Source: Salvelinus alpinus
Taxonomy: Eukaryota; Chordata; Actinopteri; Salmoniformes; Salmonidae
NCBI RefSeq assembly: GCF_045679555.1
Contig: NC_092096.1
Span: 17,636,771 to 17,700,770, forward strand
DNA length: 64,000 nt
Direction of reading: 5' to 3'
Shown: positions 27,742 through 64,000 of the stretch, in pieces
Layout: each line of letters begins with the position of its first letter
How positions within the stretch are numbered: position 1 is the stretch's first letter
Translations under genes and position numbers: made by a program
Notes under the pieces: model-generated
Seen by the model: the letters and a program-made list of their open reading frames with translations, nothing else
Told to the model about the DNA's origin: nothing
Databases searched by the model: none

Positions 27742-27841
27742 NNNNNNNNNNNNNNNNNNNNNNNNNNNNNNNNNNNNNNNNNNNNNNNNNNNNNNNNNNN
27801 NNNNNNNNNNNNNNNNNNNNNNNNNNNNNNNNNNNNNNNNN
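27742..27841. other. Assembly gap (100 N)
   Basis: Exactly 100 N separate the 69-bp satellite from the 60-bp minisatellite. A round 100 is the usual placeholder for a gap of unknown size, so the distance between the arrays and their true lengths are not known from this window. Confidence 0.95.
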
Positions 27842-49500: not shown

Positions 49501-52500
49501 AGACAGGGTGGCAGAGGAGTTCAGCTGGGTCCAGTGGGACAGCCAGACACAGAGACTCTTCTACTTCACACACAGGGTAACATACCATATATACAGTACC
49601 AGTCAAAAGTTTGGACACACCTACTCATTCAAGGGTTTTTCTTTATTTTTACTATTTTCTACATTGTAGAATAATAGTGAAGACATCAACACTATGAAAT
49701 AACACATATGGAATCATGTAGTAACCAAAAAAGTGTTAAACAAATCTAAATATATTTGAGATTTGAGATTCTTCAAAGTAGCCAGCCTTTGCCTTGATGA
49801 CAGCTTTGCACTGTTGGCATTCTCTCAACCAGCTTCACCTGGAATGCTTTTCCAACAGTCTTGAAGGAGTTCCCACATATGTTGAGCACTTGTTGGCTGC
49901 TTTTCCTTCACTCTGTGGTCCAACTCATCCCAAACCATCTCAATTGGGTTGAGGTCAGGTGATTGTGGAGGCCAGGTCATCTGATGCAGCACTTCATCAC
50001 TCTCCTTGATCAAATAGCCCTTACACAGCCTTGGGGTGTGTTGGGTCATTGTCCTGTTGAAAAACAAATGATAGTCCCCATTAAGCACAAACCAAAGTAG
50101 GGTGGCTACTTTAAAGAATCTCAAATATAAAATATATTTGGATTTGTTTAACACTTATTTGGTTACTACATGATTCCATATGTGTTATTTCATAGTTTTG
50201 ATGTCTTCACTATTCTACAATGTAGAAAATACTAAAATAAAGAAAAACCCTTGAATGAGAAGGTGTGTCCAAACTTTTGACTGGTACTGTAGGTAACACA
50301 CTGTAGGCTCTGATCTGGGCAACAACACCTTAACCTAATATGTTCTATTTCTTTTGAATTGTGAAGACGAATGCAGAAATTCCTCCTGATAATGCAATAA
50401 TGACCTCCCTTCTTTCTCTGTCAGGAAAAAGCGGTGCTGAAATGTGTGCAATTCTGCCATGACCACAACTGTGAGACCTTGGTGAGACTAGCAGCAGAAA
50501 TCATTTAATCATCAACACTTTATGGGTAGAGTTTCAGGTCAGGCTACTTAATGCTTCCCCCTCTTTCCGACAGTTTGAGCTTGAACTGGAGTTGCCCTCT
50601 AACCCTTTCACCTGTATGAGGTAAGAATGAAAAGTAAAATTAAATTAAATAAGATAACTTTTCAGCTAAACTGTGTATTTCCTGAAAACAGTTCATCAAT
50701 ATTCAGTCATTTCTAGTGATGCTGTATGGATATCTCCTTGTGTGTTTGACCCTCAGGTTTGTTAACCTGGGCTTTGACCATCACCAAGAGACACAGCATG
50801 AACGGGAGGAGATGAGGATGGTGGTGATCACCAATAAAACAGGCACGTTTTGGTTAAACATTAACTGATTCACCTCCATACTGTATTGATAATGAACTAT
50901 GCTCAGAGAACATTCCTCTCTCATTGAGTTTGTCATGGCTTTGTGTTTGACATGGGACGTGAATGGAAACAGAGGGTAAGTGCTGTAGCTGCTCTGATCT
51001 CGATGAACTGGGTCACTCCTTGATCAATGGACAGTTCAGTTCACCACCAGCACAATCACACTCACTTCACAGAGCCCAGATTTATAGAACTTCTCAATTC
51101 TCCAGATTGCATTAGTCAAGCTGCACAATTGGAAATGCTGCAGGCTTCCCAATCGTAAAAATAATGAGTGTTTCTTTGAAAGGCCTATCAAATCTAAAGA
51201 TGGTTGACGACGGCCCAGGGCCAGGATCACAATCACTTCACTGTGCTACTTATTCCAAATGACATTCAAGATTCAACCAATAAAACACTGTTGCTTTTAA
51301 TAAGACCCCAATCAATACCACATTGTTAAAATGCTATCCTTCTGCTTCTTCTTCTGGTTCTGCTTCTTCTGGTTCTGCTTCTTCTTCTTCTTCTGGTTCT
51401 GCTTTTTCTGGTTCTGCTTTTGCTTCTTCTTCTGGTTCTGCTTCTTCTTCTTCTTCTGGTTCTGCTTCTTCTGGTTCTGCTTCTTCTTCTGGTTCTGCTT
51501 TTTCTGGTTCTGCTTCTTCTTCTTCTTCTGGTTCTGCTTCTTCTTCTTCTGGTTCTTCTTCTTCTGGTTCTTCTTCTTCTTCTTCTGGTTCTTCTTTGTA
51601 TTCATCTGTTGTTAGAGTGTAATTGGTTGTTTTAATACCTGATCCTTACTGTTGATTGCAGGGAGTATGTGTGTGTGTTACAGCCAGCCTGCTTGTGCCG
51701 ACCAGGAGATCACATACACCATAGTCCTGGTGCACAGAGGTTCAGTATTATACGTCTTACCATGTTGCATTAGTTCCATACATTATTCACAAATGACTAA
51801 TTAAGTTCCGTCAGGGAAAATCCAAATTTCTTCTAAGTTTCAAGTTGTACATTGTAACCAACAGAGCCTCTCTGCCCTCTACAGGCTGCAGTAAAACATT
51901 CTCAGTGGCTCTGGATGGCACCCCTAGTCCATGTAGTACAGATCTCCTCCCTCTCTTCATCCCTATAGGTCAGTCAACACATCTGTCTCACAGACATCCT
52001 GTCAATCCTATCACAACCCCTTCAGTGCCTACTGGAACACTCCCACACAGCCCATCCCCCTTCAGTACCTGCTGGAACACTCCCACACAGCCTGTCCATC
52101 CTATCACAGCCCCTTAGAACCTGCTGGAACACTCTCACACAGCCCATCCATCCTATCACAACCCCTTAGAACCTGCTGGAACACTCCCACACAGCCCATC
52201 CATCCTATCACAGCCCCTTAGAACCTGCTGGAACACTCCCACACAGCCCATCCATCCTATCACAGCCCCTTCAGAACCTGCTGGAACACTCTCACACAGC
52301 CCATCCCCCTTCAGTACCTGCTGGAACACTCTCACACAGCCCATCCCCCTTCAGTACCTGCTGGAACACTCCCACACAGCCCATCCATCCTATCACAACC
52401 CCTTCAGTACCTGCTGGAACACTCCCACACAACCCATCCATCCCATCACAGCCCCTTCAGTACCTGCTGGAACACTCCCAGACAGCCCATCCCCCTTCAG

Positions 52501-55500
52501 TACCTGCTGGAACACTCCCAGACAGCCCATCCCCCTTCAGTACCTGCTGGAACACTCCCAGACAGCCCATCCCCCTTCAGTACCTGCTGGAACACTCCCA
52601 TACAGCCCATCCATCCTATCACAGCCCCTTCAGTACCCACTGGAACACTCCCATACAGCCCATCCATCCTATCACTACCCCTTCAGTACCCACTGGAACA
52701 CTCCCATACAGCCCATCCATCCTATCACAGCCCCTTCAGTACCCACTGGAACACTCCCACACAGCCGATCCATCCTATCACAGCCCCTGATAGTGGTACT
52801 TCTACTTGGCACTGAGGAAGTGGTTTTAGGAGTTATTTGTGATCAGATGTTTATTATTATTGTACAGTAGACATTTACATAAGAGAACAAACAAATAAAC
52901 CAACCAAAAACATTTGAGGTCATTCCAAGATAGCTGATGAATATACGTAGACTAGCCTGCTGTTCTCTGCCCAGGTTACTACGTGGTAGTCTACCTGTCT
53001 GGTCACTTCCTGCACTGCATCAACACCAGACAACAGGAGCTGCTCTGCCACAGTCTCTTCCTCTCAGGTAAGGCTGGACCTGGGGCATGTTCATCAGGAC
53101 ACACCGTAGCCAATTGTTTTGCAATGGAAAAGCAAATGTAGTTTTTTTTTTACGGTTGAGATACCTCTGTGTTTCACTCCATTACGTGGCTATGAACACG
53201 ACCCTGGTTACCAACACAAGTGGACTATATGAGGAATAGGGAGTCATCTGAGATGCAGCCCAAGTGTGTGTTTGTTAAACTGGCCTCAGTATAACTGTGT
53301 TACAGGTGTTGATGATGGCCTCAGTATAACTGTGTTGCAGGTGTTGATGATGGCCTCAGTATAACTGTGTTACAGGTGTTGATGCAGAGCCTCAGTGTAA
53401 CTGTGTTGCAGGTGTTGATGCAGAGCCTCAGTATAACTGTGTTACAGGTGTTGATGAGGGCCTCAGTGTAACTGTGTTACAGGTGTTGATGCAGAGCCTC
53501 AGTGTAACTGTGTTACAGGTGTTGATGAGGGCCTCAGTGTAACTGTGTTACAGGTGTTGATGATGGCCTCAGTATAACTGTGTTACAGGTGTTGATGCAG
53601 AGCCTCAGTATAACTGTGTTACAGGTGATGATGATGGCCTCAGTATAACTGTGTTACAGGTGATGATGATGGCCTCAGTATAACTGTGTTACAGGTGTTG
53701 ATGATGGCCTCAGTATAACTGTGTTACAGGTGTTGATGAGGGCCTCAGTGTAACTGTGTTACAGGTGTTGATGCAGAGCCTCAGTATAACTGTGTTACAG
53801 GTGTTGATGATGGCCTCAGTATAACTGGTACAGGTGTTGATGATGGCCTCAGTATAACTGTGTTACAGGTGTTGATGAGGGCCTCAGTATAACTGTGTTA
53901 CAGGTGTTGATGCAGAGCCTCAGTGTAACTGTGTTACAGGTGTTGATGAGGGCCTCAGTATAACTGTGTTACAGGTGTTGATGAGGGCCTCAGTGTAACT
54001 GTGTTACAGGTGTTGATGCAGAGCCTCAGTGTAACTGTGTTACAGGTGTTGATGAGGGCCTCAGTATAACTGTGTTACAGGTGTTGATGATGGCCTCAGT
54101 ATAACTGGTACAGGTGTTGATGATGGCCTCAGTATAACTGTGTTACAGGTGTTGATGAGGGCCTCAGTATAACTGTGTTACAGGTGTTGATGCAGAGCCT
54201 CAGTATAACTGTGTTACAGGTGTTGATGATGGCCTCAGTATAACTGTGTTACAGGTGTTGATGCAGAGCCTCAGTATAACTGTGTTACAGGTGATGATGA
54301 TGGCCTCAGTATAACTGTGTTACAGGTGATGATGATGGCCTCAGTATAACTGTGTTACAGGTGTTGATGATGGCCTCAGTATAACTGTGTTACAGGTGTT
54401 GATGAGGGCCTCAGTATAACTGTGTTACAGGTGTTGATGATGGCCTCAGTATAACTGGTACAGGTGTTGATGATGGCCTCAGTATAACTGTGTTACAGGT
54501 GTTGATGAGGGCCTCAGTATAACTGTGTTACAGGTGTTGATGCAGAGCCTCAGTGTAACTGTGTTACAGGTGTTGATGAGGGCCTCAGTATAACTGTGTT
54601 ACAGGTGTTGATGATGGCCTCAGTATAACTGGTACAGGTGTTGATGATGGCCTCAGTATAACTGTGTTACAGGTGTTGATGAGGGCCTCAGTATAACTGT
54701 GTTACAGGTGTTGATGCAGAGCCTCAGTGTAACTGTGTTACAGGTGTTGATGCAGAGCCTCAGTGTAACTGTGTTACAGGTGTTGATGAGGGCCTCAGTA
54801 TAACTGTGTTACAGGTGTTGATGATGGCCTCAGTGTAACTGTGTTACAGGTGTTGATGCAGAGCCTCACTATAACTGTGTTACAGGTGTTGATGATGGCC
54901 TCAGTATAACTGGTACAGGTGTTGATGATGGCCTCAGTATAACTGGTACAGGTGTTGATGATGGCCTCAGTATAACTGGTACAGGTGTTGATGATGGCCT
55001 CAGTGTAACTGTGTTACAGGTGTTGATGCAGAGCCTCAGTGTAACTGTGTTACAGGTGTTGATGAGGGCCTCAGTATAACTGTGTTACAGGTGTTGATGA
55101 TGGCCTCAGTGTAACTGTGTTACAGGTGTTGATGCAGAGCCTCACTATAACTGTGTTACAGGTGTTGATGATGGCCTCAGTATAACTGGTACAGGTGGGG
55201 ATGATGGCCTCAGTATAACTGGTACAGGTGTTGATGATGGCCTCAGTATAACTGTGTTACAGGTGTTGATGATGGCCTCAGTATAACTGTGTTACAGGTG
55301 TTGATGATGGCCTCAGTATAACTGTGTTACAGGTGTTGATGATGGCCTCAGTATAACTGTGTTACAGGTGTTGATGATGGCCTCAGTGTAACTGTGTTGC
55401 AGGTGTTGATGCAGAGCCTCAGTGTAACTGTGTTACAGGTGTTGATGAGGGCCTCAGTATAACTGTGTTACAGGTGTTGATGATGGCCTCAGTATAACTG

Positions 55501-58500
55501 TGTTACAGGTGTTGATGATGGCCTCAGTATAACTGTGTTACAGGTGTTGATGATGGCCTCAGTGTAACTGTGTTACAGGTGTTGATGCAGAGCCTCAGTA
55601 TAACTGTGTTACAGGTGTTGATGAGGGCCTCAGTGTAACTGTGTTACAGGTGTTGATGATGGCCTCAGTGTAACTGTGTTACAGGTGTTGATGAGGGCCT
55701 CAGTATAACTGTGTTACAGGTGTTGATGATGGCCTCAGTATAACTGTGTTACAGGTGTTGATGAGGGCCTCAGTATAACTGTGTTACAGGTGTTGATGCA
55801 GAGCCTCAGTATAACTGTGTTACAGGTGTTGATGATGGCCTCAGTATAACTGGTACAGGTGTTGATGAGGGCCTCAGTATAACTGTGTTACAGGTGTTGA
55901 TGAGGGCCTCAGTATAACTGTGTTACAGGTGTTGATGATGGCCTCAGTATAACTGGTACAGGTGTTGATGAGGGCCTCAGTGTAACTGTGTTACAGGTGT
56001 TGATGAGGGCCTCAGTATAACTGTGTTACAGGTGTTGATGAGGGCCTCAGTGTAACTGTGTTACAGGTGTTGATGAGGGCCTCAGTATAACTGTGTTACA
56101 GGTGTTGATGAGGGCCTCAGTGTAACTGTGTTACAGGTGTTGATGAGGGCCTCAGTATAACTGTGTTGCAGGTGTTGATGAGGGCCTCAGTGTAACTGTG
56201 TTACAGGTGTTGATGCAGAGCCTCAGTATAACTGTGTTACAGGTGTTGATGAGGGCCTCAGTATAACTGGTACAGGTGTTGATGATGGCCTCAGTATAAC
56301 TGTGTTACAGGTGTTGATGAGGGCCTCAGTGTAACTGTGTTACAGGTGTTGATGAGGGCCTCAGTGTAACTGTGTTGCAGGTGTTGTTGATGGCCTCAGT
56401 GTAACTGTGTTACAGGTGTTGATGAGGGCCTCAGTATAACTGTGTTACAGGTGTTGATGCAGAGCCTCAGTGTAACTGTGTTGCAGGTGTTGATGAGGGC
56501 CTCAGTGTAACTGTGTTACAGGTGTTGATGATGGCCTCAGTGTAACTGTGTTACAGGTGTTGATGATGGCCTCAGTATAACTGTGTTGCAGGTGTTGATG
56601 GCCTCAGTGTAACTGTGTTGCAGGTGTTGATGAGGGCCTCAGTATAACTGTGTTGCAGGTGTTGATGCAGAGCCTCAGTATAACTGTGTTACAGGTGTTG
56701 ATGAGGGCCTCAGTATAACTGTGTTACAGGTGTTGATGATGGCCTCAGTATAACTGTGTTACAGGTGTTGATGATGGCCTCAGTATAACTGTGTTACAGG
56801 TGTTGATGGCCTCAGTATAACTGTGTTACAGGTGTTGATGGCCTCAGTATAACTGTGTTACAGGTGTTGATGGCCTCAGTATAACTGTGTTGCAGGTGTT
56901 GATGCAGAGCCTCAGTATAACTGTGTTACAGGTGTTGATGAGGGCCTCAGTATAACTGTGTTACAGGTGTTGATGATGGCCTCAGTATAACTGTGTTACA
57001 GGTGTTGATGGCCTCAGTATAACTGTGTTACAGGTGTTGATGGCCTCAGTATAACTGTGTTACAGGTGTTGATGGCCTCAGTATAACTGTGTTGCAGGTG
57101 TTGATGCAGAGCCTCAGTATAACTGTGTTACAGGTGTTGATGAGGGCCTCAGTATAACTGTGTTACAGGTGTTGATGAGGGCCTCAGTATAACTGTGTTA
57201 CAGGTGTTGATGATGGCCTCAGTGTAACTGTGTTACAGGTGTTGATGCAGAGCTGGGTGTGTTGGGATCAGACAGTGTGGTGTTGTCTCTACCTGAGTCC
57301 TCTCTGCTGGACCTGAACACAGGCAGGATGTTCACTGTAGACCTCAACCCCTCCTTCCTAATGGACCTACTGCACTGCAGGTAGAATGGACTAGAATGGA
57401 CTAGAATGGAGTAGAATGGAATGGAATGGAATGGAATGGAATAGAATGGAATAGAATGGAATAGAATGGACTAGAATGGAGTATAATAGAATGGAATAGA
57501 ATGGAGTAGAATGGAATAGAATAGAATGGAGTAGAATAGAATAGAATGGAATGGAATGGAATAGAATAGAATGGAATAGAATAGAATGGAATAGAATAGA
57601 ATAGAATAGAATAGAATAGAATAGAATAGAATAGAATAGAATGGAATGGAGTAGAATGGAATAGAATGGAGTAGAATAGAATGGAATGGAATAGAATGGA
57701 GTAGAATAGAATGGAATGGAATAGAATAGAATGGAATAGAATAGAGTAGAATGGAATAGAATGGAGTAGAATAGAATAGAATGGAATAGAATGGAGTAGA
57801 ATAGAATGGAATAGAATAGAATGGAATAGAATAGAATGGAATAGAATGGAATAGAATGGAGTAGAATGGAATAGAATGGAGTAGAATAGAATAGAATGGA
57901 ATAGAATGGAATAGAATAGAATAACATAGATACAATATAGCTCAATCCATTGTTGAATGGAAAATGGTCTTGAGTGTTGGAGTGTGTATTTCATGCTTAC
58001 TGCATGTAGAAAGTACTGGAGCATTAGGTATTATAGTGATGCTACACTTCACACTCTGTGTATGTAGTATTCATGACGTCTGTGTGCTCTGTGCTGTAAC
58101 CACAGTAGACCTGACGCTCAACGCCTGGCTGCCCTGCACTGTCTGCTGCTCTACATGGGACCCAACGCTGCACTACAACTGAAGGTAGGAGATGCAAGCA
58201 AAACCCCTGAGGACACTTTGCTCAGAGAGAGAGAGAGCAAGAGAGACACAGAGGGTGTTTAAAAATATATTATTTAACCAGGTAGGCTAGTTGAGAACAA
58301 GTTCTCATTTACAACTGTGACCTGGCCAAGATAAAGCAAAGCAGTGCGACACAAACAACAACACAGAGTTACACATGGAATAAACATGGAATGACCTCAG
58401 TCATCCAAACTTCCGAATACTGCCCCCTATCCCTAAAAAGTTTTAACTTGGCTTTCGAAGACCTTAGAAAGGCAGGGTAGGATAGATATAGGTCCGTAGC

Positions 58501-59792
58501 AGTTTGGGTCTAGAGTGTCTCCCCCTTTTGAAGAGTGTGAGAGATAGAGAGAGAGATGTTTTGGAGGGAGAAGTTCAGGACTGGGTTCTGACCATGAGTC
58601 AAGTTGTTTATAACAGAGAAAGTGCTGCACTTGAAATTTCCATCTGCAGTACTTGTTCTAAATGGTGTCTCTGTGGCCATGACAACTCACTAACACAGTT
58701 AGAGAGGTAACCCGTCTTAGAGGTCCACGAGGACGAGGCTGCTGTGGTTTTATCAATTCTGTGGAAGCCCCTTACATAACATGGCTTTATATATGTGTGG
58801 TAACACTGGAATTACTATAGTAACAATACCAAGATGTTGTTACATAGCATAGCACGGATATTACTTCATGCGTTTTCTCTGCAGATCATAGATTGGATCT
58901 GTGACAATGTCATGCCGTTCGACACCTTCGATCAAATTCAGGAATTTATTCTGGGTAAGTGGAACAAGACAATATCATCATTTTAAAATCTATTTTTGTG
59001 GTGTTTTATGTAAGAATCATCGTCTCCCTTCAACGACAGCGTCACTGTACAGGCTCGTCTATAAGAAGTGTCTCAGTCTGGATGAAGTCCTACCCTACTC
59101 CTCTGTGTTTGAGAAGAAGAAGGTACCGCAGGGTCTCGACCAGGTCCCTGGTGTCACCTGCACCACGGAGCTCCATGCTGAACCAGTGTTCAAAGGAAAG
59201 GTAAGATATCTGTCACACACTCTAGCTATTCAACTACCCGATCAGTCATGTGTCATATTTAGTGATTTATTTCCAGGTTAGACACTAGGGGGCAGACATG
59301 AGTGGGAAGCAGATCCAGTGCTCAGTAACAGATAAAGAATGCATATCTAATGAATTCAATGAAGAAGAGTTGTGTTGAAAGAAGGGACGTGATAATATTA
59401 TATAAACTGGGCTATTTCCAATGAAATACCCAGTGATTATTCTGTAGATGGAGGCCTTCTTTAATTAAAGGCAAAACATGAACCATTTGTTACAATCAAG
59501 TGCATTGTATTTAATGTAATGCAGTAGGAACCCCATGTCATAAATCATTTTGTTTCCAAGGAGGTCTCAAGATGACCATAACAGATGGACTTGTTTTGCA
59601 CAAACAGTAAAAGTAGTAAACATCTGGTGTTTACTAGATGGTAATGTTTCGCTGCAGGTCAGGAGTCAACAGGGCTTTTGGGAAGAGCTGCAGTGGAGCA
59701 CAGAAAAGATGAAGTACTTTGAGGCGGTTCCAAACCCACGATACAGAGCATCTCAGAACCTGCCAGACTGGACCAAGCTGCTCACTACCCTG
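46493..59792 (+). CDS. gsap: gamma-secretase activating protein (partial gene, exons 1-20)
   Basis: The gene is recognised by near co-linear similarity, recalled rather than searched, with vertebrate GSAP (pigeon-homologue family). Diagnostic stretches are SKCLTLLIEIHPINN, YDPNTRQNK, GSMCVCYS, YYVVVYLSGHF, LAALHCLLLY and FDTFDQIQEFIL. Twenty exons can be joined with consistent phases: 46493-46580, 46720-46790, 47413-47469, 47775-47844, 48257-48304, 48857-48945, 49107-49176, 49331-49380, 49472-49576, 50425-50481, 50574-50620, 50757-50842, 51662-51739, 51885-51968, 52975-53067, 57239-57380, 58106-58184, 58885-58954, 59040-59200 and 59658-59792. They sum to 1680 nt (560 codons) with no stop. Mammalian GSAP is about 850 residues, so the C-terminal third, including the region processed to the 16-kDa active fragment, is outside the window. 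GSAP is reported to bind gamma-secretase and the APP C-terminal fragment and to favour amyloid-beta production. The ATG at 46493 is the only in-frame ATG after the upstream TGA at 46439-46441; its Kozak context is weak (C at -3). Introns carry large repeat arrays. Confidence 0.93.
46720..46790 (+). CDS. gsap: gsap exon 2
   Basis: The acceptor is CCTCTACAG and the donor AAA|GTAAGT. Encodes EYSGIVDTRILNIERDGGVL then YSWK, matching the GSAP stretch with the VLNVERNG motif. Enters in phase 1 and ends in phase 0. Intron 1 is only 139 bp. Confidence 0.9.
46914..47060. mobile_element. Palindromic salmonid MITE-like element with duplicated arm
   Basis: The left arm (about 46948-46995: GCATCCCAATGGCACCCTAT, TCCCTATAGTGCACTACTTT, TGACC) and right arm (about 47010-47058: GGTCAAAAGAAGTGCACTAT, GTAGGGGATATGGTGCCATT, GGGACG) are near-perfect inverted complements around a short loop. 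An extra copy of the first 33 bases of the left arm sits immediately upstream (46914-46947). By recall this palindrome is a dispersed repeat in salmonid genomes; its class is uncertain. It lies in gsap intron 2. Confidence 0.8.
47111..47178. repeat. 14-bp TACTGGTTAAAAGC repeat
   Basis: Five tandem copies of TACTGGTTAA(A/G)AGC in intron 2, the last decaying to GAGGCATT. Confidence 0.9.
47294..47367. repeat. CA/CACAC-ACCAC compound microsatellite
   Basis: A (CA)n run passing into imperfect CACACCACACA modules, in intron 2 about 45 bp upstream of the exon 3 acceptor. Confidence 0.9.
47413..47469 (+). CDS. gsap: gsap exon 3
   Basis: The acceptor is CATCTCTCAG and the donor AAG|GTAGAG. Encodes 19 codons including GKYDPNTRQNK, matching GSAP YDxxTRQN. 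Phase 0 on both sides, so skipping would preserve frame. Confidence 0.92.
47622..47766. repeat. C-rich CCCCTCTCCCCTAA repeat before exon 4
   Basis: About 145 bp of CCCCT(C/G)TCCCCT(A/T)ACCC modules ending about 8 bp before the exon 4 acceptor. The tract doubles as the pyrimidine tract of that splice site. The opposite strand has many GGGG runs with 3-7-base loops, compatible with G-quadruplex formation. Confidence 0.9.
47775..47844 (+). CDS. gsap: gsap exon 4
   Basis: The acceptor CTCTTCACAG directly follows the C-rich tandem tract of intron 3. Encodes LLYTFDKQVCVSSCSLNKEE then TLL. The donor is CTGG|GTAAGG, and the exon ends in phase 1. Confidence 0.93.
48257..48304 (+). CDS. gsap: gsap exon 5
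   Basis: A short exon with acceptor CATTTTTAG and donor TCAG|GTACCT. Encodes A-VSLAQRTRTEERLRS, aligned with the ASLVQST region of GSAP. Phase 1 on both sides. A long C run sits about 20 bp beyond the donor. Confidence 0.88.
48323..48345. repeat. Poly-C run with one G
   Basis: Fifteen C, then G, then six or seven C, about 20 bp inside intron 5. Runs of this length are also prone to sequencing and assembly length error. Confidence 0.85.
48857..48945 (+). CDS. gsap: gsap exon 6
   Basis: The acceptor is CTACTCCTAG and the donor CAG|GTATAG. Encodes V-SKCLTLLIEIHPINN followed by TKVLKAVDCRVRVQ. This is the most strongly conserved segment of the gene and the best single evidence for the family. 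Confidence 0.95.
49107..49176 (+). CDS. gsap: gsap exon 7
   Basis: The acceptor is TTTCATGCAG and the donor GGCT|GTGAGT. Encodes FIHPDTERDSVLESHLLLVA then EDG. The SHLLLV motif corresponds to the NHLLLIS stretch of GSAP. Ends in phase 1. Confidence 0.92.
49331..49380 (+). CDS. gsap: gsap exon 8
   Basis: The acceptor is GACCTTTCAG and the donor GTG|GTAAGA. Encodes Y-VEQLHVMLVRQEGYRV, matching the YIEQF...Q.G segment of GSAP. Confidence 0.92.
49472..49576 (+). CDS. gsap: gsap exon 9
   Basis: The acceptor is TTCTAACAG and the donor AGG|GTAACA. Encodes 35 codons with AKDRVAEEFSWVQWDSQTQR and LFYF, matching DRIAEDFxWAQWD of GSAP. A Tc1-like deletion derivative begins 17 bp after the donor. Confidence 0.94.
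49594..50289 (-). mobile_element. Non-autonomous Tc1-like element with intact ends
   Basis: A 696-bp element in intron 9 bounded by TA dinucleotides (49592-49593 and 50290-50291). The terminal inverted repeats begin CAGTACCAGTCAAAAGTTTG and end in the complement CAAACTTTTGACTGGTACTG, with homology extending about 130 bp inward on each side. By recall this is a common salmonid Tc1-like family. Internal deletion leaves only the C-terminal transposase part, so it is non-autonomous but could in principle be cross-mobilised. It makes up most of the 848-bp intron. Confidence 0.92.
49825..50075 (-). pseudogene. Tc1-like transposase C-terminal remnant
   Basis: On the minus strand the frame contains QMTWPPQSPDLNPIEMVWDE, including the last catalytic Glu of the DD34E triad. 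HMWELLQDCWKSIPGEAG follows at its end. The helix-turn-helix region and the first catalytic Asp are absent, and the second Asp region is altered (FNRTMTQHT in place of the QxDNDPKHT-type motif). No functional protein can result. Confidence 0.88.
50425..50481 (+). CDS. gsap: gsap exon 10
   Basis: The acceptor is TTCTCTGTCAG and the donor TTG|GTGAGA. Encodes EKAVLKCVQFCHDHNCETL, matching the ILKCIQF motif of GSAP. Phase 0 on both sides. Confidence 0.92.
50574..50620 (+). CDS. gsap: gsap exon 11
   Basis: The acceptor is TTTCCGACAG and the donor ATGAG|GTAAGA. Encodes FELELELPSNPFTCM plus two bases. Similarity to the FEVPLDI region is modest, but phase and splice signals agree with both neighbours. 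Confidence 0.88.
50757..50842 (+). CDS. gsap: gsap exon 12 (GC donor)
   Basis: The acceptor is ACCCTCAG. Encodes R-FVNLGFDHH followed by REEMRMVVITNKT, matching the KLVNFGCDYH region of GSAP. Frame and homology require the exon to end at ACAG (50842), where the next bases are GCACGT. The donor is therefore GC, not GT. The nearest GT, six bases on, would give a product inconsistent with exon 13 phase. Confidence 0.88.
50843..51661. other. gsap intron 12, GC-AG type
   Basis: An 819-bp intron from GCACGT to TTGATTGCAG. Apart from the CTT/CTGGTT microsatellite in its second half I see no element in it. Confidence 0.75.
51343..51600. repeat. (CTT)n/CTTCTGGTT microsatellite
   Basis: About 258 bp of CTT triplets punctuated by TCTGGTTCTGC modules, in intron 12 about 60 bp upstream of the exon 13 acceptor. 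The complementary strand is a GAA-rich purine tract. Ser-, Phe- or Lys/Gln-rich frames here are compositional. Confidence 0.93.
51662..51739 (+). CDS. gsap: gsap exon 13
   Basis: The acceptor is TTGATTGCAG and the donor AGAG|GTTCAG. Encodes G-SMCVCYSQPACADQEITYT then IVLVHR, matching GSLCVCYS...QITY.VFYIHKG of GSAP. Confidence 0.94.
51885..51968 (+). CDS. gsap: gsap exon 14
   Basis: The acceptor is CCTCTACAG and the donor ATAG|GTCAGT. Encodes G-CSKTFSVALDGTPSPCST and DLLPLFIPI, aligned with HSKTFTTSLE of GSAP. Phase 1 on both sides. A 40/53-bp minisatellite starts about 20-30 bp past the donor. Confidence 0.9.
   Translation, partial: AAVKHSQWLWMAPLVHVVQISSLSSSL
51990..52790. repeat. 40/53-bp minisatellite in intron 14
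   Basis: About 16 copies of a unit with CAGTACCTGCTGGAACACTC followed by CCACACAGCCCATCC. Alternate longer copies add ATCCTATCACAGCCCCTT, giving lengths of 40 or 53 bp. Variants include CCCACTGG, TTAGAACC and CCAGACAG. Confidence 0.93.
52975..53067 (+). CDS. gsap: gsap exon 15
   Basis: The acceptor is CTCTGCCCAG and the donor TCAG|GTAAGG. Encodes G-YYVVVYLSGHFLHCINTRQ then QELLCHSLFLS, matching DYYVAVYLPGHFFHLLN...CHSLFLTG of GSAP. Confidence 0.95.
53078..53207. mobile_element. MITE-like element, GTTCAT-ended
   Basis: About 130 bp bounded by inverted ends CCTGGGGCATGTTCAT and ATGAACACGACCCTGG. It contains CACACCGTAGCCAA and CATTACGTGGC toward its ends. By recall, elements of this form are dispersed in salmonid and other teleost genomes. 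It sits about 10 bp inside intron 15. Confidence 0.65.
53215..53262. mobile_element. Diverged half of the palindromic element
   Basis: GTGGACTATATGAGGAATAG then GGAGTCATCTGAGATGCAGC resembles the right arm of the palindromic element at 46.9 kb (GTGCACTATATAGGGAATAG, then GGTGCCATTTGGGACGCAG), with many substitutions. Confidence 0.5.
53282..57238 (+). repeat. 35-bp minisatellite made of splice acceptors (intron 15)
   Basis: About 113 tandem copies over 3.96 kb. The typical unit is 35 bp: GTGTTGATGATGGCCTCAGT followed by ATAACTGTGTTACAG. Recurring variants are GATGAGGGC, GATGCAGAGC, AGTGTAAC and GTTGCAG, plus 33-bp (ACTGGTACAG) and 32-bp (GTTGATGGCC) forms. Each unit ends in TACAG and the next begins GTGTTGATG. 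These are exactly the intron 15 acceptor and the first bases of exon 16, and the final copy is the genuine splice site. Variant order recurs over several hundred base pairs, which shows block duplication within the array. Confidence 0.95.
57239..57380 (+). CDS. gsap: gsap exon 16, flanked by splice-site arrays
   Basis: The acceptor GTGTTACAG is the last of about 113 tandem copies of the same acceptor in intron 15, and the first ten bases of the exon (GTGTTGATGC) continue the repeat. Encodes G-VDAELGVLGSDSVVLSLPE then SSLLDLNTGRMFTVDL and NPSFLMDLLHC. The donor is TGCAG|GTAGAA, and GTAGAATGG is itself the start of the intron 16 pentanucleotide array. Similarity to the SGSLVLDCCSGKL region of GSAP is moderate. 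Phase in (1) and out (2) fit both neighbours. Confidence 0.9.
57383..57922. repeat. TAGAATGGAA pentanucleotide array (intron 16)
   Basis: About 540 bp of GAATG/GAATA pentamers (mostly TAGAATGGAATAGAATGGAG), starting within two bases of the exon 16 donor. GGAAT-type runs near 57417-57440 resemble the vertebrate GGAAT simple satellite. Ser/Phe/Tyr-rich minus-strand frames are an artefact of the five-base period. Confidence 0.95.
58106..58184 (+). CDS. gsap: gsap exon 17
   Basis: The acceptor is GTAACCACAG and the donor AAG|GTAGGA. Encodes S-RPDAQRLAALHCLLLYMGP then NAALQLK, matching the MAALHCALYCG segment of GSAP. Confidence 0.93.
58258..58390. mobile_element. Dispersed salmonid repeat fragment
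   Basis: A stretch containing TTTAACCAGGTAGGCTAGTT, GAGAACAAGTTCTCATTTAC and GACCTGGCCAAGATAAAGCA. By recall this is a high-copy salmonid sequence. Its class is uncertain; it may belong to the same retroelement as the adjacent reverse-transcriptase fragment. It lies in gsap intron 17. Confidence 0.6.
58433..58545 (-). pseudogene. LINE reverse-transcriptase fragment
   Basis: The minus-strand translation contains KGGDTLDPNCYGPISILPCL then SKVFESQV. This matches the conserved opening of non-LTR retrotransposon reverse transcriptases (KxGD..xxNYRPISIxxxxxKxxE), with Tyr-Arg-Pro changed to Tyr-Gly-Pro. Only about 35 residues remain, so it is a dead fragment inside gsap intron 17, antisense to the gene. 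Confidence 0.75.
58885..58954 (+). CDS. gsap: gsap exon 18
   Basis: The acceptor is TTTCTCTGCAG and the donor CTGG|GTAAGT. Encodes IIDWICDNVMPFDTFDQIQE then FIL, matching IIQWISENV...FDLIQEFI of GSAP. Confidence 0.95.
59040..59200 (+). CDS. gsap: gsap exon 19
   Basis: The acceptor is CAACGACAG and the donor AAG|GTAAGA. Encodes 53 codons beginning A-SLYRLVYKKCLSLDEVLPYS, matching the SSYWSVY...LLPHSSV region of GSAP, and ending FKGK. Intron 18 is only 85 bp. Confidence 0.94.
59201..59657. other. gsap intron 19, no internal feature
   Basis: A 457-bp intron with ordinary AT-rich sequence. No repeat, element or extra exon is recognised. Confidence 0.6.
59658..59792 (+). CDS. gsap: gsap exon 20 (last exon in window)
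   Basis: The acceptor is TTTCGCTGCAG and the donor CTG|GTGAGT. Encodes 45 codons with GFWEELQWSTEKMKYFEAVP and LPDWTKLLTTL, matching GYWEKL...YVKYAKP and the following WHNLI of GSAP. Ends in phase 0. A diverged copy of its last 40 bases and donor lies at 59879-59925. Confidence 0.92.
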
Positions 59793-59878
59793 GTGAGTTC
59801 TGTTCAGACCTAGAAATATGTAGCAGCATTGGTGAGTTCACACATATTAGAGGATCAAACTGAAGATCCAGAAACTCT

Positions 59879-59925
59879 AACAGTCTGCTAGACTGGACCA
59901 CGCTGCTAACTACCCTGGTGAGTTC
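59879..59925 (+). repeat. Duplicated 3' end of gsap exon 20 with donor
   Basis: CTGCTAGACTGGACCACGCT then GCTAACTACCCTGGTGAGTT repeats the last 40 bases of exon 20 and its donor with five substitutions or so. One of them changes CCAGAC to CTAGAC and so creates a TAG in the exon frame. A CTCTAACAG just before it could act as an acceptor. A third GGTGAGTTCACACA lies at 59831, so this is a partial local duplication of exon-intron boundary sequence. Confidence 0.85.
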
Positions 59926-59974
59926 ACACAGAGAGACTGGACTATAGAGGATCTCTGGGAGCTCAGTGCACCAC

Positions 59975-60945: not shown

Positions 60946-63900
60946 GGAAGTCAGAGAACACATTCTACCCTCTGTCTGTTCCAGAAGTTAGAGAACACAT
61001 TCCTCCCTCTGTCTGTTCCAGAAGTTAGAGAACACATTCCTCCCTCTGTCTGTTCCAGAAGTTAGAGAACACGTTCCTCCCTCTGTCTGTTCCAGAAGTT
61101 AGAGAACACGTTCTACCCTCTGTCTGTTCCAGAAGTTAGAGAACACGTTCCTCCCTCTGTCTGTTCCAGAAGTCAGAGAACACGTTCCTCCCTCTGTCTG
61201 TTCCAGAAGTCAGAGAACATGTTCCTCCCTCTGTCTGTTCCAGAAGTTAGAGAACACGTTCCTCCCTCTGTCTGTTCCAGAAGTTAGAGAACACGTTCCT
61301 CCCTCTGTCTGTTCCAGAAGTTAGAGAACACATTCCTCCCTCTGTCTGTTCCAGAAGTTAGAGAACACGTTCCTCCCTCTGTCTGTTTCAGAAGTTAGAG
61401 AACACATTCTTCCCTCTGTCTGTTCCAGAAGTCAGAGAACATGTTCCTCCCTCTGTATGTTCCAGAAGTTAGAGAACACGTTCTTCCCTCTGTCTGTTCC
61501 AGAAGTCAGAGAACATGTTCCTCCCTCTGTCTGTTCCAGAAGTCAGAGAACATGTTCCTCCCTCTGTCTGTTCCAGAAGTCAGAGAACATGTTCCTCCCT
61601 CTGTCTGTTCCAGAAGTTAGAGAACACGTTCCTCCCTCTGTCTGTTTCAGAAGTTAGAGAACACATTCTTCCCTCTGTCTGTTCCAGAAGTCAGAGAACA
61701 TGTTCCTCCCTCTGTCTGTTCCAGAAGTCAGAGAACATGTTCCTCCCTCTGTCTGTTCCAGAAGTTAGAGAACACGTTCTACCCTCTGTCTGTTCCAGAA
61801 GTTAGAGAACACATTCTTCCCTCTGTCTGTTCCAGAAGTCAGAGAACATGTTCCTCCCTCTGTCTGTTCCAGAAGTTAGAGAACACATTCCTCCCTCTGT
61901 CTGTTCCAGAAGTTAGAGAACACGTTCCTCCCTCTGTCTGTTCCAGAAGTTAGAGAACACGTTCCTCCCTCTGTCTGTTCCAGAAGTTAGAGAACACGTT
62001 CCTCCCTCTGTCTGTTCCAGAAGTTAGAGAACACGTTCCTCCCTCTGTCTGTTCCAGAAGTTAGAGAACACATTCCTCCCTCTGTCTGTTCCAGAAGTTA
62101 GAGAACACGTTCCTCCCTCTGTCTGTTCCAGAAGTTAGAGAACACGTTCCTCCCTCTGTCTGTTCCAGAAGTTAGAGAACACGTTCTACCCTCTGTCTGT
62201 TCCAGAAGTTAGAGAACACGTTCCTCCCTCTGTCTGTTCCAGAAGTCAGAGAACACGTTCCTCCCTCTGTCTGTTCCAGAAGTCAGAGAACATGTTCCTC
62301 CCTCTGTCTGTTCCAGAAGTTAGAGAACACGTTCCTCCCTCTGTCTGTTCCAGAAGTTAGAGAACACATTCCTCCCTCTGTCTGTTCCAGAAGTTAGAGA
62401 ACACATTCCTCCCTCTGTCTGTTCCAGAAGTTAGAGAACACATTCCTCCCTCTGTCTGTTCCAGAAGTTAGAGAACACGTTCTACCCTCTGTCTGTTCCA
62501 GAAGTTAGAGAACACGTTCCTCCCTCTGTCTGTTCCAGAAGTCAGAGAACACGTTCCTCCCTCTGTCTGTTCCAGAAGTTAGAGAACACGTTCCTCCCTC
62601 TGTCTGTTCCAGAAGTCAGAGAACACGTTCCTCCCTCTGTCTGTTCCAGAAGTCAGAGAACATGTTCCTCCCTCTGTCTGTTCCAGAAGTTAGAGAACAC
62701 GTTCCTCCCTCTGTCTGTTCCAGAAGTTAGAGAACACATTCCTCCCTCTGTCTGTTCCAGAAGTCAGAGAACATGTTCCTCCCTCTGTCTGTTCCAGAAG
62801 TTAGAGAACACGTTCCTCCCTCTGTCTGTTTCAGAAGTTAGAGAACACATTCTTCCCTCTGTCTGTTCCAGAAGTCAGAGAACATGTTCCTCCCTCTGTC
62901 TGTTCCAGAAGTTAGAGAACACATTCTTCCCTCTGTCTGTTCCAGAAGTCAGAGAACACGTTCCTCCCTCTGTCTGTTCCAGAAGTTAGAGAACACATTC
63001 CTCCCTCTGTCTGTTCCAGAAGTTAGAGAACACATTCCTCCCTCTGTCTGTTCCAGAAGTTAGAGAACACATTCCTCCCTCTGTCTGTTCCAGAAGTTAG
63101 AGAACATGTTCCTCCCTCTGTCTGTTCCAGAAGTTAGAGAACACGTTCCTCCCTCTGTCTGTTCCAGAAGTTAGAGAACACGTTCCTCCCTCTGTCTGTT
63201 CCAGAAGTTAGAGAACACGTTCCTCCCTCTGTCTGTTCCAGAAGTTAGAGAACACATTCCTCCCTCTGTCTGTTCCAGAAGTTAGAGAACACATTCCTCC
63301 CTCTGTCTGTTCCAGAAGTTAGAGAACACGTTCCTCCCTCTGTCTGTTCCAGAAGTTAGAGAACACGTTCCTCCCTCTGTCTGTTTCAGAAGTTAGAGAA
63401 CACGTTCTTCCCTCTGTCTGTTCCAGAAGTCAGAGAACATGTTCCTCCCTCTGTCTGTTCCAGAAGTTAGAGAACACGTTCTTCCCTCTGTCTGTTCCAG
63501 AAGTCAGAGAACATGTTCCTCCCTCTGTCTGTTCCAGAAGTCAGAGAACATGTTCCTCCCTCTGTCTGTTCCAGAAGTCAGAGAACATGTTCCTCCCTCT
63601 GTCTGTTCCAGAAGTTAGAGAACACGTTCCTCCCTCTGTCTGTTTCAGAAGTTAGAGAACACATTCTTCCCTCTGTCTGTTCCAGAAGTCAGAGAATATG
63701 TTCCTCCCTCTGTCTGTTCCAGAAGTTAGAGAACACATTCTTCCCTCTGTCTGTTCCAGAAGTCAGAGAACATGTTCCTCCCTCTGTCTGTTCCAGAAGT
63801 TAGAGAACACATTCCTCCCTCTGTCTGTTCCAGAAGTTAGAGAACACGTTCCTCCCTCTGTCTGTTCCAGAAGTTAGAGAACACGTTCCTCCCTCTGTCT

Positions 63901-64000
63901 GTTCCAGAAGTTAGAGAACACGTTCCTCCCTCTGTCTGTTCCAGAAGTTAGAGAACACGTTCCTCCCTCTGTCTGTTCCAGAAGTTAGAGAACACGTTCC
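60946..64000 (+). repeat. 37-bp minisatellite of acceptor-like units (intron 20)
   Basis: At least 82 copies of a 37-bp unit (CCTCCCTCTGTCTGTTCCAG followed by AAGTTAGAGAACACGTT), continuing off the right edge. Variants are GTTAGAG/GTCAGAG, ACACG/ACACA/ACATG, TTCTACC/TTCTTCC and GTTTCAG. Each copy is a long pyrimidine tract ending TTCCAG followed by an open start (AAG TTA GAG AAC), which is a textbook 3' splice site. By analogy with intron 15, the last copy outside the window may be the real exon 21 acceptor. Longer blocks recur: for example the order of variants near 61130-61260 is repeated near 62190-62320. Confidence 0.95.

Follow-up and report, generated by a model that had tools for sequence, protein, structure and literature searches.

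More than 110 tandem copies of a splice acceptor at the end of intron 15 of gsap

In the human CBS gene, a variable number tandem repeat (VNTR) is reported to affect splicing or enzyme activity, a matter to which, by its title, a 2001 study by Lievers is devoted. This 31-bp repeat, c.1444_1467+7, is polymorphic, with 16–21 copies; its unit, by its name, spans exon and intron (24 + 7 nt), and each copy repeats the junction (PMC2630376). Here, we describe a repeat on the acceptor side of a splice junction, found in gsap, the gene for gamma-secretase-activating protein, in a window of Salvelinus alpinus DNA (G000:C11:17636771-17700770, the whole stretch of 64,000 nt that was analysed, part of a 2.37-Gb genome). 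Intron 15 of gsap ends in a minisatellite whose unit holds both intron and exon letters of the functional junction (21 + 15 nt). In both copies of the locus that are present in the assembly, the array lies at the junction, and its last copy is the junction itself. The difference from CBS lies in the site repeated, an acceptor in gsap and a donor in CBS, and in the copy numbers, which are 114 and 122 in gsap vs 16–21 in CBS (PMC2630376). The gsap array can be described as a minisatellite that repeats the acceptor side of a splice junction in very many copies. Full-text searches, in which most subscription journals were not covered, listed no title on an array repeating a splice acceptor, which is no proof of absence, and the accessible parts of two articles on fish tandem repeats (PMC2688266, PMC5241972) held nothing on arrays at splice junctions.

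Three other systems share part of this anatomy. In a potato RdRp gene, a tandem duplication runs across an intron-exon boundary and comprises an intron end and an exon start; it is, however, a single duplication giving a new intron, whereas in gsap an existing intron appears to have been lengthened by more than 100 short copies (PMC4974935). The 24-bp AGGT tandem duplications of fission yeast, which are cited in the same article, resemble the gsap array in their short tandem AG/GT copies (a slash marks the splice junction throughout) with an intron across several of them, but they concern an exonic segment, in two to four copies, and are read as intron gain (PMC4974935). In gsap the repeated segment is not wholly exonic, 21 of its 36 nt being intronic, and the array is preceded by 214 nt of intron to which it bears no relation. 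Finally, in recursive splicing at ratchet points, the stronger of two competing donors tends to win in Drosophila (PMC8605326). Juxtaposed AG/GT is likewise found at 114 of 114 gsap sites, where each unit is a potential zero-length exon, but ratchet points depend on a recreated donor of good quality that is followed by a cryptic exon, whereas the recreated gsap donor appears weak and the copies follow each other in tandem about 35 nt apart (PMC8605326).

The gsap model comprises 30 exons, labelled e05-e34, with the first exons left out; exons 15 and 16, in the numbering of a preliminary description of this DNA that is kept here, are e18 and e19 of the model. Its best protein match was the Salvelinus namaycush gamma-secretase-activating protein, with 98% identity (464 residues). 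Joining the 30 modelled exons through the last array acceptor gave an open frame whose only stop is the terminal one, and the gene therefore looks intact. Among the 114 acceptors, the last one (57238) was the only one from which the frame stayed open. The exon 15-16 junction read LFLSGVDAELGVLGSD (LFLS/GVDAELG) in 11 of the 12 top-scoring proteins (P0001-P0012, all salmonid), while the twelfth, a Coregonus record, had an earlier point of exon 15 joined to GVDAELG. Both the frame and these proteins agree with the preliminary description in identifying the final repeat as the true exon-16 junction. A simple junction pattern was matched by 85 of the 113 listed proteins, and P0101, another salmonid protein, begins past the junction. 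Since GVDAELGVLGSD, the start of exon 16, was unaltered in 11 of these 12 proteins, the exon side of the repeat looks ancestral.

With regard to the array itself, Tandem Repeats Finder (TRF) reported a 35-bp period and 113.9 copies, and splitting at NCAG/GTG yielded 114 acceptors, from 53305 to 57238, and 113 units, in line with the initial estimate of about 113 tandem copies in the intron. The fullest unit is 36 bp long (CTCAGTRTAACTGTGTTACAG/GTGTTGATGCAGAGC, i.e., 21 nt of intron end and 15 nt of exon 16). Exon 16 starts with the same GTGTTGATGCAGAGC and diverges from the unit only after these 15 shared nt, all of which are carried by 24 of the 114 sites, the true site among them. The 113 units represented 20 sequence types and measured 35 nt (71 units), 36 nt (23), 33 nt (12) or 32 nt (7). 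The statement that each unit ends in TGTTACAG was slightly too strong, this ending being present at 91 of the 114 acceptors, with TGTTGCAG at 11 and GGTACAG at 12; GTGTTGATG, said to come after each unit, directly followed 108 of the 114. The motif TATAAC or TGTAAC was indeed found upstream of 114 of 114 acceptors. CAG/GTG was lost in no unit, as judged by the lack of any double-length unit, a retention that is not taken as a test of selection given the small number of independent mutations. The array unit was found only in the two copies of the gsap locus, where at least 123 DNA matches (123 of 123, with two candidates scored) were located, all of them in the two arrays, and a dispersed satellite was rejected on this ground. 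Rfam gave no match in the window at gathering score. Folded RNA was also considered and given no weight as an explanation, because the last five units folded barely better than shuffled sequences (z -1.76; 13 of 200 shuffles were equally good).

Table 1. Positions of the gsap features discussed (window numbering, or contig numbering where preceded by C11)
Feature	Position	Strand	Remarks
gsap exon 15 (e18)	52975..53067	+	open frame with neighbours, protein match; donor TCAG/gtaagg
Intron 15	53068..57238	+	4171 nt; initial 214 nt free of repeat
Minisatellite, 114 acceptors	53282..57253	+	TRF 53282-57247, unit list; final 15 nt (57239-57253) are the exon 16 start GTGTTGATGCAGAGC
Last intronic unit	57204..57238	+	true acceptor AG at its end, 57238
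gsap exon 16 (e19)	57239..57380	+	142 nt, starts GVDAELGVLGSDSVVLSL
Weak exon-16 donor CAG/GTAGAA and adjoining 10-bp array TAGAATGGAA	57381..57923	+	
Second acceptor-straddling array, unit CTGTTCCAG/AAGTTAGAGAACACGTT	60947..64000, on to C11:17704388	+	
gsap exon e24	C11:17704376-17704434		second array ends 13 nt inside

In the copy of the locus that lies in the window, the use of any upstream acceptor led to a premature stop (113 of 113), which was a TGA in exon 16 for the penultimate acceptor and a TAA within the array for the other 112, exactly as translated by hand in the preliminary description. In the other locus copy, an early stop likewise resulted from 121 of 121 upstream acceptors. 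Although it is correct that any mis-choice leads to a stop, this outcome is nearly automatic, because a period of 35 nt, which is not a multiple of three, brings every frame to be read within three units; it is no evidence of design and gives no hint of the tuned device that had been proposed. By our estimate, about 19% of random circular 35-mers contain no stop at any of their 35 positions. A search that scored 462 candidates brought up no protein carrying peptides of the intron-15 array at E ≤ 10, truncated products being seldom present in protein databases, and a pattern scan showed such peptides to be absent from the 113 listed proteins.

The local splice signals were scored with a rough matrix. 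In it, the true exon-16 acceptor reached 4.91, the fifth weakest value among 30 gsap acceptors, and 28 of the 113 decoys scored as high or higher, for which reason the strength of the true acceptor was rejected as the selector. The identity between array acceptors and the true junction depended on the interval compared: it held for 26 of the 113 decoys over -20 to +9, for 4 over -35 to +15 and for none over -105 to +15. A short local sequence model is therefore blind between those 26 decoys and the true site. The exon-16 donor (4.62) was the seventh weakest of 29 gsap donors, and the exon-15 donor (11.41) was the strongest. Within 60 nt of the true site, yTnAy was matched by TTGAT alone, which is located 28 nt upstream, within the segment of the preceding unit that derives from the exon; TATAAC or TGTAAC is separated from the AG by no more than about 12 nt, which is close for a branch point. 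Furthermore, exon 16 is flanked by arrays on both sides, its donor being the opening letters of the 10-bp array TAGAATGGAA, in which 12 more GTs (11 GTAGAA) all scored below 0, well short of the 4.62 of the true donor.

The same contig carries a second copy of the gsap locus some 135 kb upstream, and the intron-15 array of that copy contains 122 acceptors. A 100-N gap is located at window positions 27742-27841, and an overlap of about 134 kb exists between C11:17530157-17664511 and the sequence from 17664612 onward; in a repeat-masked comparison, collinear matches extended from the post-gap start (window 27842) to the 69-bp array where the pre-gap sequence ends. Because both limits of the overlap are contig ends, a coincidence that a real tandem duplication would need, the two copies are most likely unmerged haplotypes placed end to end in the assembly, so that gsap appears twice. 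Tandem gene duplication is the less likely source of the second array, both overlap limits coinciding with contig ends at the 100-N gap. The 69-bp array was seen again downstream (C11:17778-17783 kb). No gsap exons were detected elsewhere in the genome, as 26 of 26 protein-search matches fell in the two locus copies (34 of 34 first-look candidates scored), and the whole-genome protein search thus provided no salmonid ohnolog as an outgroup.

The intron-15 array accordingly exists with two copy numbers, 114 and 122, in what are most likely two haplotypes. When both arrays were written as strings of unit types, of which there are 21 across the two copies, the order was largely shared, and the differences consisted of blocks of 10, 8, 2, 2, 1 and 1 units, in addition to substitutions. 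Both arrays run into exon 16, which is identical in the two copies; e08-e22 were also unchanged in the other locus copy, and e23 was not. Between the copies, 5 mismatches and 71 gap positions were counted over 7.9 kb to the left of the array (C11:17546886-17554775), compared with 32 mismatches and 7 gap positions over 2.06 kb beyond exon 16 (C11:17559653-17561709). Either an exchange at the array or a phase switch in the assembly would explain this low divergence on the left and high divergence on the right.

Acceptor repetition recurs at a second exon of gsap. A 37-bp array, unrelated in sequence to that of intron 15, ends 13 nt into e24 (junction CTGTTTCAG/AAGTCAGAGAACAAGAAGG), with 180.4 copies here vs 51.4 in the other locus copy. 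Out of its 180 acceptors, 177 led to a stop within the array and one to a stop beyond it, whereas two were open to the end, namely the true one and one located 72 nt upstream, and one mis-choice at e24 would therefore be in frame. A single protein among the 113 listed, P0004 (Oncorhynchus keta isoform X1), contains KSENTFFTLSVPEVREHVLYSVCFRSQRT, which corresponds to an e24 that starts two units further upstream and continues across the true acceptor; this isoform also skips a later exon. The O. keta isoforms X2 and X3 have the true e24 acceptor, with one residue different (KSKNKK). Isoform X1, an annotation-based record, is the sole sign found that array acceptors may be used.

Taken together with the CBS comparison, we consider it likely that the intron-15 array is an acceptor-side mirror of the CBS VNTR, a by-product that is tolerated because the exon-adjacent copy is productively used. 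This explanation builds on what is directly observed, namely the anatomy, the intact frame, the difference in copy number between the two assembled copies, the stops and the recurrence at a second exon, where an array of unrelated sequence covers another gsap acceptor together with 13 exon nt. In the simplest origin, a 36-bp stretch, to which intron 15 contributed its final 21 nt and exon 16 its initial 15 nt, would have been tandemly duplicated, and unequal exchange or slippage would subsequently have expanded and reshuffled it to more than 110 copies, with the AG/GT core kept. In productive mRNA, the copy contiguous with the rest of exon 16 would be used, most plausibly because exon definition matches the donor of this exon to its closest acceptor and because the products of upstream choices, which carry a premature stop, would be removed by nonsense-mediated decay. 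Some wasteful mis-splicing is likely, the array would be a tolerated side effect of the unusual abundance of minisatellites at this locus, and a regulatory role is presumably absent. Several points weigh against this account: the use of the last acceptor is deduced from the reading frame and annotated proteins, the origin of the array is read from sequence alone, and the weak acceptor and weak donor of exon 16 make reliable exon definition, which as a selector comes from theory, somewhat less obvious.

The preliminary description had instead proposed that copy number or splicing fidelity might tune gsap output. In such a scheme, the number of decoys or the accuracy of splicing would set the share of premature-stop messages, and hence the level of gsap, and the array would be a length-dependent attenuator. 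Such a function, which we regard as unlikely, would be in line with the stops after 113 of 113 upstream choices, with the 114 vs 122 copies in the two assembled copies and with the O. keta isoform, whose use of an acceptor two units upstream at the sister array suggests that array acceptors may be used at all. However, the stops follow almost by necessity from the 35-nt period, no protein with intron-15 array peptides emerged at E ≤ 10 from the 462 candidates scored, and, should proximity to exon 16 be decisive, extra copies farther away than the nearest few units would make little difference. The AG/GT core also invites the idea of a recursive-splicing ladder, in which each unit would act as a zero-length exon, the joining of exon 15 to any unit would recreate AG/GT, and the intron would be removed stepwise, with early strikes corrected later. 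CAG/GTG is present at 114 of 114 sites, and the recreated donor, CAG/GTGTTG, scored 4.39, near the 4.62 of the exon-16 donor; GTGTTG nonetheless appears weak vs the gene's best donor (11.41), and the AG/GT is merely the copied exon-16 junction, with e12, e15, e18 and e23 likewise starting with GT after CAG. Strikes one unit (35 nt) upstream would be uncorrectable, the leftover intron being too short. Ratchet points of vertebrates are also described as few (PMC8605326), and such a ladder appears very unlikely. In its self-healing form, to which we likewise attach a very small probability, the 113 zero-length exons would allow strikes almost anywhere in intron 15, re-splicing would restore the right mRNA, and strikes within about one unit would leak premature-stop RNA; if this were true, acceptor arrays of this kind would repeatedly serve fish genomes rich in minisatellites as a means of extending introns with the exon kept.

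An assembly artefact, by which mis-assembly would have produced the length of the array or its contact with exon 16, is highly improbable. The locus does occur twice on one contig, with a 100-N gap in between and overlap limits at contig ends, the stretch is very probably mis-joined, and long arrays are hard to assemble. Nevertheless, the 21 unit types follow much the same order in the two copies, which differ by whole blocks gained or lost, both copies run into an identical exon 16, and a few units more or less would leave the main point unchanged. The array suggests that a splice site and the adjoining edge of its exon can be taken over by a minisatellite without evident loss of the reading frame of the gene. 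How the spliceosome selects one 3' splice site among several identical ones is a long-standing problem, for which two or three copies have usually been used; with 114 and 122 copies, a second array, and errors at the first array that are visible as stops, gsap would allow scanning, proximity and exon definition to be tested directly.

The surroundings of these arrays are rich in minisatellites. Arrays of at least 400 bp occupied 155,010 of 261,500 bp around the locus, a count that includes both copies and some unread bases, and 21 arrays extended over 30,794 of the 48,256 bp of the gsap span. Two of the 21 arrays started in the first 15 nt of an exon, vs 0.53 expected under random array positions (P 0.095), and three lay at -8 to +15 of an acceptor, the additional one being just before e07 (P 0.049). 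Targeting of arrays to acceptors was thus not supported, and since 2 of 21 is not far above 0.53, no special targeting is needed. Other arrays differed in length between the locus copies as well: a 28-bp array had 994 copies (C11:17594161-17621574) vs 70 (17745412-17747357), and a 26-bp array had 17 copies (C11:17566383-17566820) vs 448 (17704937-17716460). Window positions 1-27741 consist of 27.7 kb of the 69-bp tandem repeat, in 400 copies, truncated at one end by the start of the window and at the other by the gap.

Two further observations concern other exons of gsap. Exon e15 seemingly ends in a GC donor, ACAG/GCACGT (window 50842-50848), which would make the following intron a GC-AG intron; this donor agrees with NKTGSMCVCYS in P0001, and some salmonid proteins have one extra residue there (TEGSM). 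The end of e23 together with its donor (GACTGGACCA.GCTGCT.ACTACCCTGGTGAGTTC, window 59758-59800) recurs about 125 bp further on, at 59885-59930, within the intron.

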